A DNA stretch of 64,000 nt, taken from positions 98,848 to 162,847 of the forward strand of contig JAFXQA010000008.1 of NCBI GenBank assembly GCA_017527415.1, given 5' to 3'. Below the pieces are notes generated by a model that was not told where the DNA came from, made no database searches, and worked only from the letters and a program-made list of their open reading frames with translations. The DNA is from Bacteroidales bacterium. Its GTDB lineage: Bacteria; Bacteroidota; Bacteroidia; Bacteroidales; UBA932. Within the stretch, counting starts at the first letter, position 1; the number at the start of each line of letters is the position of its first letter. Position numbers and translations under genes: made by a program. Shown here piece after piece: positions 2,723 to 60,800 of the stretch.

Positions 2723-2737
2723 GCTTATTTTATAGCC

Positions 2738-2845
2738 ATGGCGGGCAAGTAGCTGATAATCAACGAGATGCCCACAGTGCTCCCCCTCGTTTAGAAGGGG
2801 GAGGCTTGTGCTTAAAACATTACAACACAGCTAGTTAGCCGCCAT
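2738..2845. repeat. 108-bp inverted-dimer element, copy A
   Basis: It runs from ATGGCGGGCAAGTAGCTG to the near-perfect inverse of that sequence, ending in CCGCCAT. A central palindrome CTCCCCCT...AGGGGGAG lies at 2780-2803. The length is exactly 108 bp, as in copies B (37123), C (38174), D (40701) and E (59662). Each half is 54 bp, with CTCCCC beginning at half-position 43. It lies between tRNA-Asn and the small lipoprotein gene. No target duplication was seen. Confidence 0.8.
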
Positions 2846-2892
2846 CTTATCGATTACTCTTCTTTTTTAAGCTCGATATCCAAAATACTTGC

Positions 2893-18640: not shown

Positions 18641-18663
18641 AACCTCAGTTTATTTTTGGGCCC

Positions 18664-18750
18664 ACCCGTCAAGAAAAACCTGCAAAACCTCTACGGGTCG
18701 ACCGTTTTTTGCCCTACCCGTCAAGGAAAACCCGGGAAACCTCTACGGGT
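18664..18750. repeat. Two 35-bp palindromes with 17-bp spacer
   Basis: Copies at 18664-18698 and 18716-18750, each ACCCGT...ACGGGT at the ends with AAAACC and AAACCTCTACGGGT inside. The spacer (18699-18715) has a central T6 run. They are the inverse-oriented relatives of the three copies at 59095-59234, where the ends read ACCTGT/ACAGGT, a compensating change in the stem. Confidence 0.75.
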
Positions 18751-18894
18751 CGGGGGGTTCGCGAGTGGCTGGCCGCCGCGTCGCACACAACTCCGCGGCT
18801 ATGGTACCCGCCAGCTGCGGGGAGCTCGCCGAAAGGGCTCTCCTCGCCGGCGACCATGCCAGCGGGGACCAAAAAGTGGGTAGCGGGCCGTGGT

Positions 18895-37112: not shown

Positions 37113-37122
37113 CTTCCGGGCC

Positions 37123-37230
37123 ATGGCGGGTAACTAACTGAATTTCAACTATTTAACCCATAGCCTCCCCTCTTGATTCCTAGGGGAGGCTTATAGCTAA
37201 AACACTGATGGCCAAGCTTTTAGCTGCCAT
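37123..37230. repeat. 108-bp inverted-dimer element, copy B (upstream of RAYT)
   Basis: ATGGCGGGTAACTAAC to AGCTGCCAT. The central palindrome is GCCTCCCCT...AGGGGAGGC. It ends 11 bp before the transposase ATG and is in the same orientation as copy C on the other side of the gene. Confidence 0.85.
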
Positions 37231-37241
37231 CACCATTTATC

Positions 37242-38153
37242 ATGAAGAACCCTGCAGGAGACCGCAAGGTGCTCCATATCTATCAAAATACCCCTGAAGG
37301 AAGTCTTTTATTCTATACGGTATCCGACTTCCTTGTCTACTTTACGGTATTCTGTGTTTCTGCGAGGAAGCACCGGATCACCGTTCTGGGAACATGTCCT
37401 ATGTTCGACCATCTGCATGGTTTGTTTGAAGAAGAATCACGTAAGAGTGTTTCCGGTTTTATTGGAGACTATACCCGGCAATATGCAAATCTATTCAATC
37501 AGACCATAGGTCAATCCGGGGCGGTATTCAACCCGGGTTTTGGATGTGCTGTGAAAACCGGCGACAAGAGTATCCGGACAGCCTGTTCATATCTATATAA
37601 TAATCCCGGTGAAAAGGGTCTTTGCAAAAGGGCACAGGATTATCGATGGACATTCCTGGCTTATGCTGTTTCCGACCATCCGTTTTCCGAGAAAATCGTA
37701 TTGAGTAAAGCCTCACGTCCTTTGCGCCGGGCATTGAAAGAAGTCGATTGTTTCCGAAAACAGGATAAACCGCTGACTTATGTAATTCTTGAAAGGCTGT
37801 TTCGTGACCTGGAGAACAAGGAAAAGAACCAGTTGACCGACTACATTATCTCAAGATACAACTGCATCGATTATGACCGGCTGATTTCTTTTTACGGCAG
37901 TTACGATAAAATGTGTCTTGCATTCGCTTCCAACCAGGGAAGCGAGTACGACATCGACGAAGTCTTTGAACGGGGAAGCCATAAAGTGTACCCGGCCATA
38001 TCCTCAACACTTCTTAAAGAGTGTGGTCTGAAGAGTGTCAAAGACATTTTTCATATGTCTCCTGCCGATCAGGAAGATCTTGCGCGCCGGCTGTTTTATG
38101 AAAGCTCGGCGCAGGACTGGCAGATCCGAAAGTACTTTCGATGGAAAAGGTAG
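37242..38153 (+). CDS. Y1/HUH transposase, REP-associated tyrosine transposase (RAYT)-like
   Basis: 303 residues. MFDHLHGLFE supplies the HUH motif (His57, His59), preceded by the conserved cysteine-type strand (LGTCPM). About 60 residues later CSYLYNNPGEKGLC corresponds to the YxxLNPxxAGL segment of RAYTs and carries the likely nucleophile Tyr117 (or Tyr119). The C-terminal ~100 residues are basic/helical and may bind DNA. Such enzymes cut single-stranded hairpin DNA and are tied to REP repeats. Here the gene is flanked at 11 and 20 bp by 108-bp elements B and C. Base composition is clearly AT-richer than neighbours, suggesting acquisition. No second ORF (TnpB) is present. Confidence 0.85.
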   Translation: MKNPAGDRKVLHIYQNTPEGSLLFYTVSDFLVYFTVFCVSARKHRITVLGTCPMFDHLHGLFEEESRKSVSGFIGDYTRQYANLFNQTIGQSGAVFNPGFGCAVKTGDKSIRTACSYLYNNPGEKGLCKRAQDYRWTFLAYAVSDHPFSEKIVLSKASRPLRRALKEVDCFRKQDKPLTYVILERLFRDLENKEKNQLTDYIISRYNCIDYDRLISFYGSYDKMCLAFASNQGSEYDIDEVFERGSHKVYPAISSTLLKECGLKSVKDIFHMSPADQEDLARRLFYESSAQDWQIRKYFRWKR

Positions 38154-38173
38154 AGACGTGGCGTTTCAGGGCT

Positions 38174-38281
38174 ATGGCGGCCAACTAACTGAATTTCAAC
38201 TATTTAACCATAAGCCTCCCCTAGTTTTTCGCGGGGGAGGCTTATATTTAACGTGCTGATAATCAGCGCCATATCTGCCAC
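38174..38281. repeat. 108-bp inverted-dimer element, copy C (downstream of RAYT)
   Basis: ATGGCGGCCAACTAAC to ATCTGCCAC; central GCCTCCCCT...GGGGGAGGC. It lies 3 bp beyond the comEA-like stop codon (convergent). About 95% identical to copy D in inverse orientation (5 differences by eye). The identity continues 31 bp past the element, through the last codons of the comEA-like gene (to 38312). Confidence 0.85.
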
Positions 38282-38284
38282 GAG

Positions 38285-39307
38285 CTATTTAAGCCGGCAG
38301 CGGCGAAGACGCGCTGTCTGTTCTTCGGAGAGAATGCCAGCCTGCAGCAAGCCATCAACAGTATGGTTTTCCGGCGGATTGTGATCCCGGTAAAAAGCGA
38401 TGTCCCTCGCGGTCTGCCAGTTACGGATGTGAGGGTGGTTGCGGATATCTTCCACGCTGCCGGACCAGAAGGGGTAAGGTTCTGATGGCGAGCATGTAAT
38501 GAGATCTTTAAGGCCATCATATTTCTCCTGGTCGAAATGCCAGATCTCCATCAGCTGCTCCGGGCAGCTATAGCCCCGGAGCTGCTCCCGGTACTCCACC
38601 ATCCTGTGGGCAAACCAGCCGCCTATTCCGGGAAGGGAGTCGAACGATGCTGAATCCGCTTTGTTGATATCTATTTTCGGGATGTCGATGAACGGCGCCA
38701 GGCGTTTGAACACCGAATCCGCCACCACATAACTCTTCGCAAAATCGGCCTTCCGCCGGAATCGGCCGCCCTTTTCGCGATAGTTGATTATCGACTGCGC
38801 CTGCTTTTCGGTAAAGCCCAGGCGCACCAGTTCTTCAAATTTCACGGTATTCGGATTGAAGCGGAAACTCTCCACCCTCCTCTGCGGTGCCTTTTCGTAC
38901 ATCGCCCTCGCCGCCGCCCCATGGCTGCCCATTCTCTCCACGACCACCGGTTCTCCACCCTCAGTTTGTCCTTCTTCTGCCAATCGTGTCAGTCCGGACC
39001 TGTTGTTTTGTTTTTGATTATGGGTAAAACGGGAGGATGTACCCTCACGGGACCTACGCCACCCTCGGCTTAGAGGGGGAACCGCGTCAGCGGTGGGGTC
39101 GAGCGTGGGTGGGCCTGCGGGTGTGCCAGGCGAGACGGTCGGTGAGGGTACATCCTCCCGCGCTCCCTGAACAACGAACACCGTATCCGGCCGGTCGCGG
39201 TTGGCGACCACGCGTTCTACCGCGGCGCGATGCACGAACAGCGCCAGTTCAAAGCCAAGGACGAGAAAAGCGAGGGCTATTGCCCCCGTCTTGAAAGAAG
39301 CCTTCAT
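38285..39307 (-). CDS. ComEA-like helix-hairpin-helix protein
   Basis: 340 residues. An N-terminal transmembrane/signal segment (FKTGAIALAFLVLGFELALF as the hydrophobic part) is followed by a low-complexity Pro/Ser/Thr/Arg-rich linker (about 50-130). Repeated HhH units of the ComEA type follow: FNPNTVKFEELVRLGF, DINKADSASFDSLPGIGGWFA, and further helices to about 335. This suggests a membrane-tethered DNA-binding protein, possibly for DNA uptake; a competence role is only inference. The linker includes a 131-bp DNA insert with 19-bp perfect inverted ends (39030-39160). Its 3' end touches element C. Confidence 0.8.
   Translation of the reverse strand: MKASFKTGAIALAFLVLGFELALFVHRAAVERVVANRDRPDTVFVVQGAREDVPSPTVSPGTPAGPPTLDPTADAVPPLSRGWRRSREGTSSRFTHNQKQNNRSGLTRLAEEGQTEGGEPVVVERMGSHGAAARAMYEKAPQRRVESFRFNPNTVKFEELVRLGFTEKQAQSIINYREKGGRFRRKADFAKSYVVADSVFKRLAPFIDIPKIDINKADSASFDSLPGIGGWFAHRMVEYREQLRGYSCPEQLMEIWHFDQEKYDGLKDLITCSPSEPYPFWSGSVEDIRNHPHIRNWQTARDIAFYRDHNPPENHTVDGLLQAGILSEEQTARLRRCRLK
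39030..39160. repeat. 131-bp inverted-repeat insert in comEA-like coding region
   Basis: CGGGAGGATGTACCCTCAC (39030-39048) is repeated as its exact inverse complement at 39142-39160. The 93-bp interior holds smaller hairpins (CCCTC...GAGGG, ACCGC-GTCA-GCGGT). In the protein it corresponds to residues about 50-93, a low-complexity linker. The layout suggests a palindromic element that settled in a tolerant linker. Confidence 0.6.
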
Positions 39308-40030: not shown

Positions 40031-40047
40031 AAAACGGGACTTATTGT

Positions 40048-40055
40048 TATCTTTG
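40048..40055 (+). promoter_or_regulatory. -7 box of tdk
   Basis: TATCTTTG, 30 nt before ATG 40086. The -33 region (CTTTC near 40025) is a poor match. Confidence 0.55.
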
Positions 40056-40085
40056 CACAACAAGTCGACGACAAATTTAACCAAA

Positions 40086-40658
40086 ATGTACGCAGAAAAC
40101 AATACCAAAAAGAGCGGCTGCATCGAAGTCGTATGCGGCTCTATGTTCTCCGGGAAAACAGAAGAACTCATCCGCAGGCTCCGCAGGGCCCAGTTTGCAA
40201 ATCAGGTGATAGCCATTTTCAAACCTTCGGTAGACAACCGCTATTCCGATGTGGAAGTGGTTTCTCACGATTCCCACAGCATCACCAGCAAGCCCATCAA
40301 GGATGCTGCCGAGATGCTCAAGGTCGGCCCCGAGGTGCAGGTCGTTGGTATTGACGAAGCTCAGTTCTTCGGAGAGAATCTTGCAGCAGTCTGCCAGGCC
40401 CTGGCCAACCGCGGGGTCCGCGTCATTGCAGCCGGCCTTGATACCGACTATCTCGGAAAGCCCTTCGGCCCCATCCCGGCCCTCATGGCCATCGCAGAAG
40501 ACGTGCAGAAGGTGCACGCTATCTGCGTAAAGTGCGGCGCTCTCGCCAATCATTCCCACCGCCTCAGCAAGAGCCGTAAGTTGGTGGTTCTGGGCGAGAA
40601 GGATATCTACGAGCCCCTCTGCCGCGAGTGCTTCAACAAGGCTCTGGCCGAAGAATAA
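40086..40658 (+). CDS. tdk: Thymidine kinase
   Basis: 190 residues from ATG 40086. P-loop [18 protein letters not shown] (about 18-35), DEAQFF Walker-B-like motif, and a zinc pair CVKCGA...CREC typical of the TK1-like type II family. Phosphorylates thymidine in the salvage pathway. Followed 11 bp later by the repeat D block. Confidence 0.97.
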
Positions 40659-40669
40659 AGCATAATCGT

Positions 40670-40808
40670 GCGTCTTCGCCGCTGCCGGCTTAAATAGCTC
40701 GTGGCAGATATGGCGCTGATTATCAGCACGTTAAATATAAGCCTCCCCCGCGAAAAAACAGGGGAGGCTTATTGTTAAATAGTTGAAGTTCAATTAGTTG
40801 GCCGCCAT
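40670..40808. repeat. 108-bp element copy D (40701-40808) with 31-bp carried flank
   Basis: In inverse orientation to B and C. The element proper is 40701-40808 (GTGGCAGATATGG to GGCCGCCAT). Bases 40670-40700 reproduce the last codons, stop and 3-bp gap of the comEA-like gene next to copy C (38282-38312), although no such gene exists here. C and D form a ~140-bp inverted repeat around the comEA-like, rsmI and tdk genes. Confidence 0.85.
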
Positions 40809-40878
40809 GGCCTGGGAGTTTCGCAATCTACCATGGCCAAAACCAAGATATTCAGGGATACGACAACCAATCCTCGCA

Positions 40879-41781
40879 TCATCCGCGGGGATGATGCTCC
40901 AGCACGGCTTTCTGCCAGGTGGCGGTATCTACGTGGGTGTAGATTTCGGTAGTGAGGATGCTCTCATGCCCAAGCATCTCCTGCACAACACGCAGGTCAG
41001 CTCCGTTTTCAATCAGGTGAGTGGCGAAACTGTGGCGGAAAGTGTGGGGGGATATCTCTTTGTCTACCCCGGCCAGGAGGGCAGCCTTTTTTACCATGTT
41101 GAAAACTGAAACGCGACTCAGCGGCTTTCCGAAACGGTTCAAAAAAACCACATCGTCGTAAGCAGGGGAAAACGCATCGGGGCGCATGGCGAGCCACTGC
41201 CCGTAAGCTTCGACCGCCGCACCGCCTATCGGCACCATGCGCTCTTTATCCCCTTTCCCGACGATGCGCACGAAGCCTTCCGTCTCGTAGACGTTCGATA
41301 TCTTCAATGCGCAGACTTCCGATACGCGCAGGCCGCAACCATAGAGAATCTCCAGTATCGCCCTGTCGCGCACGCCCTGCCAGGTGCGGGTATCCACGCC
41401 CTCGATTATGGCCGTAACTTCCTCTACGGAAAGCACTTCCGGGAGATATCTGCCCAATTTTGGAGCATCTACGATATCGCAGGGATTCTCTTTCCGCTCA
41501 CCCTCCAGAATCATCCAGTCGAAAAAAGACCGCAGGGCGCTGAGCTGCCTTGCCTGGCTGCGCTTGGAGACCTTGCCGGCACGCTCTGAAAAGTATGAAA
41601 CCACGGCACTGCTCTCCAGGCTGCGAAGATCAACTGCGTCCGGAGCAGATCCTTCTTCCAAAGCAGACACAAAAGCAGCCACGTCGGAGCTGTAAGAGGC
41701 CACCGTATTAGGGGACATCTTGCGCTCTATCCGCAGATAATAACGGTAGGCTTTGAGTATTTTTTCCATCTGTCCTGCCAT
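40879..41781 (-). CDS. xerD: Tyrosine recombinase XerC/XerD
   Basis: 300 residues. N-terminal core-binding SAM-like domain (about 1-100), then the catalytic domain with Arg152 (GCGLRVSE), Lys (GKGDKER), His246/Arg249 (HTFRHSF), His272 (LGHESI) and Tyr281 (YTHV). Length and spacing fit the housekeeping Xer recombinase that resolves chromosome dimers at dif, rather than a phage integrase. XerC or XerD cannot be told apart here. The -7 box ends 7 nt from ATG. Confidence 0.92.
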   Translation of the reverse strand: MAGQMEKILKAYRYYLRIERKMSPNTVASYSSDVAAFVSALEEGSAPDAVDLRSLESSAVVSYFSERAGKVSKRSQARQLSALRSFFDWMILEGERKENPCDIVDAPKLGRYLPEVLSVEEVTAIIEGVDTRTWQGVRDRAILEILYGCGLRVSEVCALKISNVYETEGFVRIVGKGDKERMVPIGGAAVEAYGQWLAMRPDAFSPAYDDVVFLNRFGKPLSRVSVFNMVKKAALLAGVDKEISPHTFRHSFATHLIENGADLRVVQEMLGHESILTTEIYTHVDTATWQKAVLEHHPRG

Positions 41782-59078: not shown

Positions 59079-59094
59079 TAACAATTGCCGGCAG

Positions 59095-59234
59095 ACCTGT
59101 AAAGGTTTTGCCGGTTTTTCTTTACAGGTAGGCCAAAAAACAGCCTACCTGTAGAGGTTTTGGATGGTTTTCTATACAGGTAGGGGGTAAAAAGGGGGTA
59201 CCTGTAGAGGTTTTGGGGCATTTCCTCTACAGGT
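59095..59234. repeat. Three 35-bp palindromes with 17-18-bp spacers
   Basis: Copies at 59095-59129, 59147-59181 and 59200-59234. Each runs ACCTGTA(A/G)AGGTTTT to (T)ACAGGT. Spacers of 17 and 18 bp have an A5-A6 centre. Inverse-oriented relatives of the 18664-18750 pair. The last copy overlaps the rsmG stop codon, supplying its final Leu codon and TAG. Confidence 0.78.
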
Positions 59235-59970
59235 CAGTGCGAGATATTTCAATCACGTATTTTTCTGCAAAATATTCATCTTTTAACCATGAATCTATTC
59301 TCCAGATGCGGATATTGGCTGCCGGAATGTGGTATTTTTTCTGCAAGGCGGCGATTTCGGTGTCGATGTCTCCGCCTTTGAGGTAAAGGATGCTGTTGCG
59401 GAAACGTCCCTTTACCCAGGGATAAAAGTTCTCGAGGCTGGTCACCGCGCGGCTCACCACCCAGTCCCACTCCCCTGCCAGGCTTTCCACACGGGCGTTC
59501 ACGCACTCCACGTTCTTCAGTCCCAGGCCATCGGCCACTGCCTGTGCCACCTTCACCTTCTTGCCAATAGAATCGCACAGAGTGAATTTCGCTTCCGGCA
59601 TCACCATCGCCAACGGAACTCCTGGAAAGCCACCTCCGGTTCCGACATCCAAAAAAGTGTTGTGGCAGCTAAATGCCTGTCTATCAGCAATTTCGCCACA
59701 CCCCTCCCCTCCATTTTCCAGGGGGAGACATATAGCTAAATCGCTGTTATTCAGCGCGTTACGTGCCATAGCGAGAGAGCTCGTAGAACGGACGGTGCCC
59801 GTTGCAGAGGGATAGTAAAGCTCCAAATACTCCGCAATAGCCAGAGAATGCAGGATGTGATGGGCGAAGATATTGTCTTCGTCCTTGCGGGAGATGACGT
59901 TGATGCGCCCGTTCCACTCGCGCCACAGCGCTACCGCCTGCGCAAAATCCTGTTCCGAGGGTATCAGCAT
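59227..59970 (-). CDS. rsmG: 16S rRNA (guanine527-N7)-methyltransferase with 36-residue repeat insert
   Basis: 247 residues from ATG 59970. NVISRKDEDNIFAHHILHSL is typical of Bacteroidota RsmG; the SAM site FLDVGTGGGFPG is at about 106-117; SIGKKVKVAQAVA and VVSRAVTSLENF follow. Residues 68-103 are encoded exactly by the 108-bp element E (59662-59769), which places 36 extra residues just before the SAM-binding strand. Without them the length (~211) is normal. The last codons and stop come from a 35-bp palindrome. Overlaps the HAD gene by 7 bp. The frame is intact, so the enzyme is probably made; whether the insert affects activity is unknown. Confidence 0.9.
   Translation of the reverse strand: MLIPSEQDFAQAVALWREWNGRINVISRKDEDNIFAHHILHSLAIAEYLELYYPSATGTVRSTSSLAMARNALNNSDLAICLPLENGGEGCGEIADRQAFSCHNTFLDVGTGGGFPGVPLAMVMPEAKFTLCDSIGKKVKVAQAVADGLGLKNVECVNARVESLAGEWDWVVSRAVTSLENFYPWVKGRFRNSILYLKGGDIDTEIAALQKKYHIPAANIRIWRIDSWLKDEYFAEKYVIEISRTDL
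59662..59769. repeat. 108-bp inverted-dimer element, copy E (in frame inside rsmG)
   Basis: GTGGCAGCTAAATGCC to GCGTTACGTGCCAT on the plus strand; central CTCCCCT...AGGGGGAG. Same length and half-structure as A-D. Read on the minus strand it begins exactly at codon 68 of rsmG with ATG-GCA and ends 36 codons later with TGC-CAC, with no stop codon. Confidence 0.85.
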
Positions 59971-60800
59971 AATCCGTGGGCCTCTTCCAGGAGGCATCCA
60001 AGTTCTTCAATGTCCCGGCAGATGAGCGACGGAGCGTGAGGCCAGGCCTTGGCCACTTCGATGGTGGTTTCGCCGCTGAGCACAAGCACCCCGAAAGCTC
60101 CGGCATTGTATGCCATTTCCACATCGGTGTAGATGCGGTCCCCCACCATCGCGATCTGCGAAGGCTTCAGTCCGTAACGGCCCTCGATCCCCGCCAGCAT
60201 GGCAGGATCCGGCTTGCCGATGGTCACATCGGGCTTGCGGCCGGTAGCATATTCTATACACTTGCAAAGCGAACCGCAGTCCACCAGAATCGTGGGCTGG
60301 TCGGTCGGGCAGACCTTGTCTGGGTTGGTAGCAAGATAGGGCAGTCCCTGTGACACCCACCATGCGGCACGGCACAGGCGCGGATAAACCAAGGTGGTGT
60401 CAAAAGCCACAACCACCGCATCCGGCACGTCGTCGGCCGACTCGGAAGTGCTCACGAAGCCCGCCTCCTCAAACTGGCTGACCATCGACGGAGTGCCCAG
60501 CAGGAACAGCCTCTTCACATCCGGCAGGTGCGTCTTGATATAATCTATCGTGGCAGGCACGGTGCTGTACATCTGCTCCCTGTCGGCCTTGATGCCCATG
60601 CGCGCCAGTTTGGCCAGATAATCGTCCAGCGACTTGGTAGGGTTGTTGGTGAGGAAGGAATATGTTATCCCCATGCGCGTCAGCTTCGCAAGGAAGTCCA
60701 GGGTGAAGGGGAAAATGTTGTTCTCCATATAGATGGTGCCATCCATATCGAGGGCTATGTGGCGCAGGGCCAGCAGTTTATCGCGCAGTTCGCTATTCAT
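59964..60800 (-). CDS. HAD-IIA family phosphatase (NagD-like)
   Basis: 278 residues. Motif I ALDMDGTIYMEN (nucleophile Asp about 18), FLTNNPTKS (motif II region), Lys of TIGKPDPAML, and MVGDRIYTDVEMAYNAG (motif III). The cap domain between about 65 and 185 fits the IIA (NagD) class. Dephosphorylates a small sugar or nucleotide phosphate; substrate not predicted. It overlaps the transporter gene by 8 bp, so the two may act on the same sugar phosphate. Confidence 0.9.
   Translation of the reverse strand: MNSELRDKLLALRHIALDMDGTIYMENNIFPFTLDFLAKLTRMGITYSFLTNNPTKSLDDYLAKLARMGIKADREQMYSTVPATIDYIKTHLPDVKRLFLLGTPSMVSQFEEAGFVSTSESADDVPDAVVVAFDTTLVYPRLCRAAWWVSQGLPYLATNPDKVCPTDQPTILVDCGSLCKCIEYATGRKPDVTIGKPDPAMLAGIEGRYGLKPSQIAMVGDRIYTDVEMAYNAGAFGVLVLSGETTIEVAKAWPHAPSLICRDIEELGCLLEEAHGLC

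Follow-up and report, generated by a model that had tools for sequence, protein, structure and literature searches.

In-frame palindromic repeats in a linker of RsmG and in other core genes of uncultured Bacteroidales

We analysed a 64,000-nucleotide stretch of a Bacteroidales genome (GCA_017527415.1, JAFXQA010000008.1, positions 98,848 to 162,847; hereafter the window), which lies on contig 19 of an assembly of 1.14 Mb that is 67% complete. The rsmG gene occupies positions 59227..59970 of the minus strand and encodes 247 amino acids from a start at MLIPSEQ, with an additional ATG upstream at 59997 in the list of open reading frames. RsmG is the 16S rRNA m7G527 methyltransferase, and the product is identified as RsmG by scores of 112.2 bits against PF02527 (cut-off 27) and 105.5 bits against TIGR00138 (cut-off 99.5), with a best profile stretch that starts only after an in-frame insert. 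Within this insert lies a 108-bp palindromic repeat unit, copy E (59662..59769, minus strand), that folds into a strong hairpin. Counting codons from MLIPSEQ, position 59769 opens codon 68 and position 59662 closes codon 103, in exact agreement with the codons 68–103 given in an initial annotation of this DNA, which had also pointed out correctly that the length is divisible by three and that the minus-strand reading has no stop. The coding frame is one of two open frames among the six; 233 of 2,000 dinucleotide-preserving shuffles of copy E are also open in it, and its openness is thus not by itself remarkable. Read through this frame, the insert residues would be part of the protein, and the predicted tryptic peptides of the loop are STSSLAMAR and NALNNSDLAICLPLENGGEGCGEIADR. 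Tandem hairpin repeats of the form ACCTGTAGAGG...CCTCTACAGGT occur at window positions 59084–59234 and 18653–18752, and the last copy of the former array supplies the rsmG stop codon.

Four further copies of the repeat are present in the window. Copy A (37113..37239, plus strand) lies between a trpS-like open reading frame and a gene for a 303-aa RAYT-like, IS200-type transposase (37242..38153, plus strand), and copy B (38164..38292, plus strand) follows just downstream of the transposase gene, its outer end touching the 3′ end of the next open reading frame (38285). Copy C (40690..40820, minus strand), 95% identical to B, is located between open reading frames 40044–40658 and 40879–41781, and copy D (2730..2850, plus strand) stands just after a tRNA gene (2622–2695). 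Apart from the outer end of B these copies are intergenic, and none of the six frames of the tested stretches is free of stops. Best local alignment scores of E against A, B, C and D were 33, 40, 34 and 21 compared to dinucleotide-shuffle means of 8.6–8.8 (z = 17.6, 24.3, 19.1 and 9.9), and none of 1,000 shuffles equalled the observed score in any case, ruling out chance similarity. The RAYT-like protein carries a Y1_Tnp/IS200-like domain (PF01797, 26.5 bits, cut-off 23) and scores 32.2 bits against the REP-associated transposase model NF047646, under its cut-off of 80. Copies A and B flank this gene in the window, as E-family copies do in the genomes G170 and G167, and a 16-sequence alignment reveals repeat ends common to the E family and the flanks of the RAYT-like gene; the proposed homology of copy E to RAYT-linked repeats is borne out. 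In the same alignment E, at about 108 bp, conserves no GTAG/CGTC tag at an end and so differs from canonical REPs.

The initial annotation had further described the element as mobile. Its placement in frame inside rsmG stands, and present mobility of the E family is only putative: a query with copy B (E ≤ 1e-4) gave matches in no more than 6 of 200 genus genomes, the match in G088 spans just 28 bases, and several matches come from the orthologous RAYT locus. The only gene in which E itself was found is rsmG, and a search for a target duplication or other transposition footprint at E detected none. Scanned against Rfam with gathering thresholds, the window returned three tRNAs only, and a known RNA family was rejected as an identity for the repeat. 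In G045, a single E-family copy lies between trpS and a ComEA-like gene (L081, 8038–8163), and no RAYT match was obtained in that stretch, unlike in G167 and G170. The window holds another palindromic element at 39030–39160, in frame in a gene (38285–39307, minus strand) that we take to be ComEA-like, with 19-bp perfect outer arms; its inner part is common to G170 and G167 and its downstream arm is not. The ComEA-like gene of G045 contains a match to a different repeat, the G120 type described below.

Comparison with relatives distinguishes occupied from empty rsmG sites. RsmG was matched in 184 of 200 sampled genus genomes; almost every titled relative is a Bacteroidales MAG, with rumen and omasum as frequent sources, and one is Candidatus Cryptobacteroides onthequi; Cryptobacteroides is the probable genus. 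E DNA lies inside rsmG in five genomes, namely the window genome (G000), G170, G167, G045 and Tb.RUG.525 (L201). We ran the alignment of relatives that had been proposed as a check (36 rows, the window and 35 loci, out of 44 sequences made up of the window and 43 genome_contigs loci), and the RsmG proteins of G171, G173, G098 and G166 proved to be without the inserted residues, which supports insertion. The empty site reads SATG-SFLDVG in G171 and SATGKDCFLDVG in G173, the genomes with the nearest empty sites, whose RsmG proteins outside the insert are identical to that of the window at 186 of 201 and 181 of 203 aligned residues. Uninterrupted homologues therefore exist as the initial annotation had anticipated, although the gap is not the expected 36 residues: the window linker has gained 46 codons relative to G171 and 44 relative to G173, comprising the 36 of the repeat unit and 8–10 more, chiefly 5′ of the unit, because about 25 bp on that side were also inserted. 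The differences to G098 and G166, whose linkers are longer, are 40 and 38 codons. Judged by these occupied and empty sites, copy E is an insertion into rsmG.

We next measured the RsmG linker between the motifs HxLHSL and DVGxGGGFPG, which was possible for 109 of 118 fetched rsmG loci (nine failed the anchor test). Linker lengths range from 31 to 93, with 95 loci at 54 or below and 14 at 58 or above. A named repeat is present in eight of the 14 long linkers: E in four, a G118-type repeat in two, a G120-type repeat in one and the repeat Pal2 in one (G009). The inserts in G120, G009 and G118 belong to repeats dispersed through the genomes concerned and through others, show no match to E copies at E ≤ 1e-3, and represent three further families, unrelated to E, in frame in the same linker of other species. 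In Tb.RUG.525 the linker combines Pal2 (L201, 1679–1770), a G120-type repeat (1804–1855) and E (1879–1995) within a single open frame of 309 amino acids. Among the 43 genome_contigs loci, the G120 type is also found in the linker of L203, together with a Pal2 remnant recognized by eye only, and the G118 type in those of L207, L208, L210 and L221. By its repeat content, the RsmG linker is a hotspot for in-frame repeats.

Our preferred reading, to which we assign a probability of roughly 85%, takes copy E for a RAYT-linked palindrome that inserted, without shifting the frame, into the loop joining the N-terminal part of RsmG to its SAM-binding strand, where the additional residues are tolerated by the protein and have persisted. 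A single-strand transposase or a relative of one would have copied E into rsmG. Insertions would land widely, but those that close the frame or add a loop the protein cannot accommodate would be lost, so that elements would collect in length-elastic linkers such as that of RsmG. The RsmG loop would be translated and the enzyme would still methylate G527.

Ordinary growth of an elastic linker, with lineage-specific low-complexity or slippage sequence merely resembling repeats, could account for the six long linkers that have no repeat-family match and appear low-complexity by eye (L023, L034, L047, L049, L054 and L146), two of which (L023 and L034) returned only themselves as blast queries against the fetched loci. 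For E it is contradicted by homology to copies outside rsmG, at scores far above shuffles, and the dispersed nature of the G120, G009 and G118 inserts speaks against it as well; we regard it as extremely unlikely. An assembly or binning artefact might be suspected from the incompleteness of the window genome and the MAG origin of its relatives, and is rejected with near certainty, since the same insert occurs at the same place with species-specific substitutions in five assemblies, four of which come from different studies or samples.

In two further readings the loop has a function or is absent from the enzyme. Had the loop been recruited for a new RsmG role, for example an rRNA or protein contact, and been kept by selection, one could point to the intact frame in five genomes, to insert dN/dS values below 1 in all six carrier pairs (0.33–0.88, Nei–Gojobori) and to a hairpin largely retained at the DNA level in five sequences, with double changes at two pairs and a covariation term of +0.44 that gives no support across these five. 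In contrast, the rest of the gene has dN/dS values of 0.04–0.07, so that the insert exceeds it by a factor of about 5–18 pair by pair, unrelated inserts occupy the same spot in relatives, and close relatives do without any insert; such domestication is unlikely. The ratios point to a weakly constrained insert, as would be expected of a tolerated loop. Bypass of hairpins during translation is known from other systems, and the strong hairpin of the E unit could favour removal or skipping of the insert at the RNA or protein level, leaving it outside the enzyme; this is very unlikely given a length that is a multiple of three and a frame open in five genomes, neither of which bypass requires.

The tolerated-insertion reading leaves room for exchange after entry. 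When the linker is removed and the RsmG core is placed in a FastTree phylogeny (109 tips), the non-carriers G171 and G173 fall among the E carriers, at local supports of 0.80–0.94. This pattern does not fit a history in which E was gained once and inherited vertically, with neither loss nor exchange. Between G170 and G167, 4 of 141 bases are different in the insert versus 73 of 609 others (Fisher p = 5.8e-4); between G170 and G171, 2 of 108 are different in codons 1–36 versus 13 of 63 in codons 37–57, which adjoin the insert (p = 5e-5, for a codon range chosen after seeing the data). The insert is more diverged than the rest in G000–G170 (21/141 versus 52/600, p = 0.04) and in G170–G045 (34/141 versus 95/600, p = 0.03); three of the six carrier pairs show no difference, and G170–G167 is the only pair with a less diverged insert. 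Patchy divergence along the gene fits homologous recombination, and an occupied or empty linker has probably been exchanged between species in this way at times, as only two Fisher tests (G170–G167 and G170–G171) suggest; in some species E may owe its presence to such exchange and not to a new insertion.

To place the other families we located 85 places of Pal2, G118-type and G120-type repeats in 12 genomes (E ≤ 1e-3) and frame-tested 70 of them by masking the element and matching the host frame on both sides to a named family, with naming representatives matching themselves; nine weak places (one of them Pal2, G167:C63) were left out, along with G045:C3:46222 and G171:C17:130. The host frame was named on both sides of the element at 28 of 35 Pal2 places, 7 of 10 G118-type places and 7 of 25 G120-type places, where a weak Pal2 match in a low-complexity frame (L275) is counted among 32 matches and not among the 28 two-sided ones. 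Three of the remaining seven Pal2 places (L175, L240 and L276) are cut by contig ends and matched on one side, and four (L244, L245 and two in L275) lie in no recognized gene. Pal2 lies in frame in core genes, with inverted flanks, at L155, L157, L159–L164, L167–L173, L178, L179, L239, L242, L243, L247, L254 and L267.

Host genes, named from NCBIfam or Pfam profiles, include UvrA, TruB, TrmB, Fmt, RNase R, RlmN and PolA above cut-off, as well as the Pfam domains LYTB (IspH), Exo_endo_phos_3, MatE, RecG_dom3_C, DAP_epimerase, Pyr_redox_2, PG_1098_Fer and MRM3-like; RlmB-like, DsbD-like, GH3, AroK-like, HemW-like, PurL, RsmF-like and AddB-like hosts fall under cut-off and are tentative. Among the hosts of in-frame Pal2 copies are UvrA, PolA, TruB, TrmB and RNase R. 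The UvrA host scores 1092.9 against TIGR00630 (cut-off 729.8) and falls just under the cut-off of NF001503. An edge of the profile stretch adjoins the element in UvrA, RNase R, TruB, TrmB and RlmN, and the profile runs through a short copy in PolA. In the window genome, Pal2 resides in TrmB, an RlmB-like gene, IspH and, twice, an AroK-like gene (L247, G000:C12:62400-65700), at frame codons 61–89 and 142–172 of the last. The TrmB of G171 provides an empty site, being 94–95% identical to the window genome on both sides with the two pieces abutting, such that 33 codons are absent. Ten of 11 UvrA linkers were readable, with Pal2 in one orientation in G098 and G166, in the other in G120 and G167, and absent from G173, G045, G171, G103, G008 and G118. 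The relatives show, at the level of sequence, that repeats have entered the rsmG linker and sites in other core genes time and again with the frame unbroken.

Several further observations concern these sites. The TrmB genes of G167 and G166 (L279 and L280) carry a different insert (..SGRHSQR..) at the linker that holds Pal2 in the window genome. Pal2 copies in L183, L269 and L244 seem to contain a further insertion inside the element, which in two cases is ..TGACAGTTTTCCGGGGTGCA.., and the frame of the G166 UvrA (L183) is open despite the insertion within Pal2. Core matches to Pal2 occur in 8 of 199 family genomes and 3 of 25 genera at E ≤ 1e-6, and none was found near RAYT genes at E ≤ 0.01 in 12 RAYT loci (±1.5 kb). 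A 30-base G118-type match (E 1.9e-5) lies near RAYT genes in G173 (L184, 2573–2602) and G120 (L185, 738–767), a possible link to a mobilizer.

The host flanks of Pal2 carry a distinctive footprint. The 92-bp core common to Pal2 copies is bordered directly on either side by host sequence, and the two bordering stretches form an inverted repeat whose sequence varies from gene to gene. Flank complementarity at 27 Pal2 places averaged 12.9 for true pairs compared to 5.1 for different-gene pairs (SD 1.35, n = 660), and a score of at least 10 was reached by 23 of 27 true pairs versus 9 of 660 different-gene pairs. Pairs drawn from orthologues of one gene were also high (mean 9.8, n = 42), and two true pairs (L177 and one place in L275) did not stand out. 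The 27 places were kept from 40 blast entries; those excluded include L180 (a repeat of the same place), the broken cores of L183, L244 and L269, the cut flanks or contig ends of L175, L240, L245 and L276, and a truncated copy in L253. Part of an arm may be an element end, given scores as high as 12.5 among different-gene pairs and the ..GGTATTC common to several arms. In TrmB the right arm is a new inverted copy, because the empty site of G171 has the left arm only; UvrA empty sites are less clear, resembling the left arm in G173 and the right arm in G045. Inverted arms are absent from G118-type (cognate 4.75 versus non-cognate 4.23, n = 10) and G120-type repeats (4.31 versus 4.35, n = 16), and the values for 16 E-family copies (4.31 versus 4.47) lead us to reject the idea that E, too, has inverted flanks specific to each locus.

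From these flanks we tentatively propose, at slightly less than even odds, that Pal2 is a gene-resident mobile hairpin whose entry makes an inverted copy of adjoining host DNA and so leaves a locus-specific palindrome, probably through strand-switching synthesis and not through cut-and-paste or direct target duplication, with permissive linkers such as that of RsmG serving as landing pads that stack families as translated sequence. Template switching between inverted-repeat arms would be the preferred mechanism for the flanks, which provide a tangible molecular trace of insertion. Rickettsia is the best-known source of in-frame coding palindromes; here they occur in uncultured rumen and gut Bacteroidales, sampled so densely that numerous sister species can be compared, along with empty sites, elements in either orientation and a linker occupied by several families. 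How such DNA gets into core genes, why genes for DNA repair and RNA modification recur as targets, and how protein loops grow thereby become testable questions.

A literature search over titles and abstract openings, with subscription journals mostly uncovered, returned no description of such elements in Bacteroidales. Template switching between inverted-repeat arms is reported to make the arms alike (PMC8604942) and coding palindromes are reported from Nematomorpha mitochondria (PMC6649704); both involve inverted repeats within coding DNA, and the former offers a mechanism for the Pal2 flanks, whereas the parts of these sources drawn on here describe no tie to a dispersed repeat family. The enterobacterial MITE-like repeats RU-1/2/3 likewise lie inside genes and are read as amino acids in silico (Delihas 2007, PMC2759123), but belong to Enterobacteria, and the portion of that account used for this comparison by description mentions no comparable hotspot. 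Closer in their targets are REPs, for which in-frame copies are described from several species in genes for UvrA, DNA polymerase I, RecBCD and TruB, with different REPs at about the same recB site in two Xanthomonas species and with REPtrons in which RAYT genes are flanked by repeats or long TIRs (Di Nocera et al. 2013, PMC3733652). The overlap of these targets with the present list is striking, yet, going by the part of that source consulted, REPs measure 20–40 bp against about 108 bp for the E unit, bear the end tag that the E consensus lacks, and are mostly intergenic, whereas the Pal2 places examined are mostly genic (PMC3733652).

Rickettsia palindromic elements (RPE) are small coding palindromes of several families, described as lying in frame in unrelated genes and encoding peptides (PMC10969869). 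Pal2 and the G118 type are likewise palindromic repeats in frame in unrelated genes and in this sense RPE-like in their way of working, and TruB is a target in both systems, of RPE-1 in R. conorii according to the account in PMC3733652 and of Pal2 here. Copy E, too, works like an RPE, and the likeness drawn here concerns its way of working. The present elements differ in their Bacteroidales host, in the several unrelated families within one linker and in the locus-specific inverted flanks of Pal2. Coding palindromes in Rickettsia and intragenic REPs were thus known already, and the bacterial group, the stacked hotspot and the inverted flanks of Pal2 are what these genomes would add.
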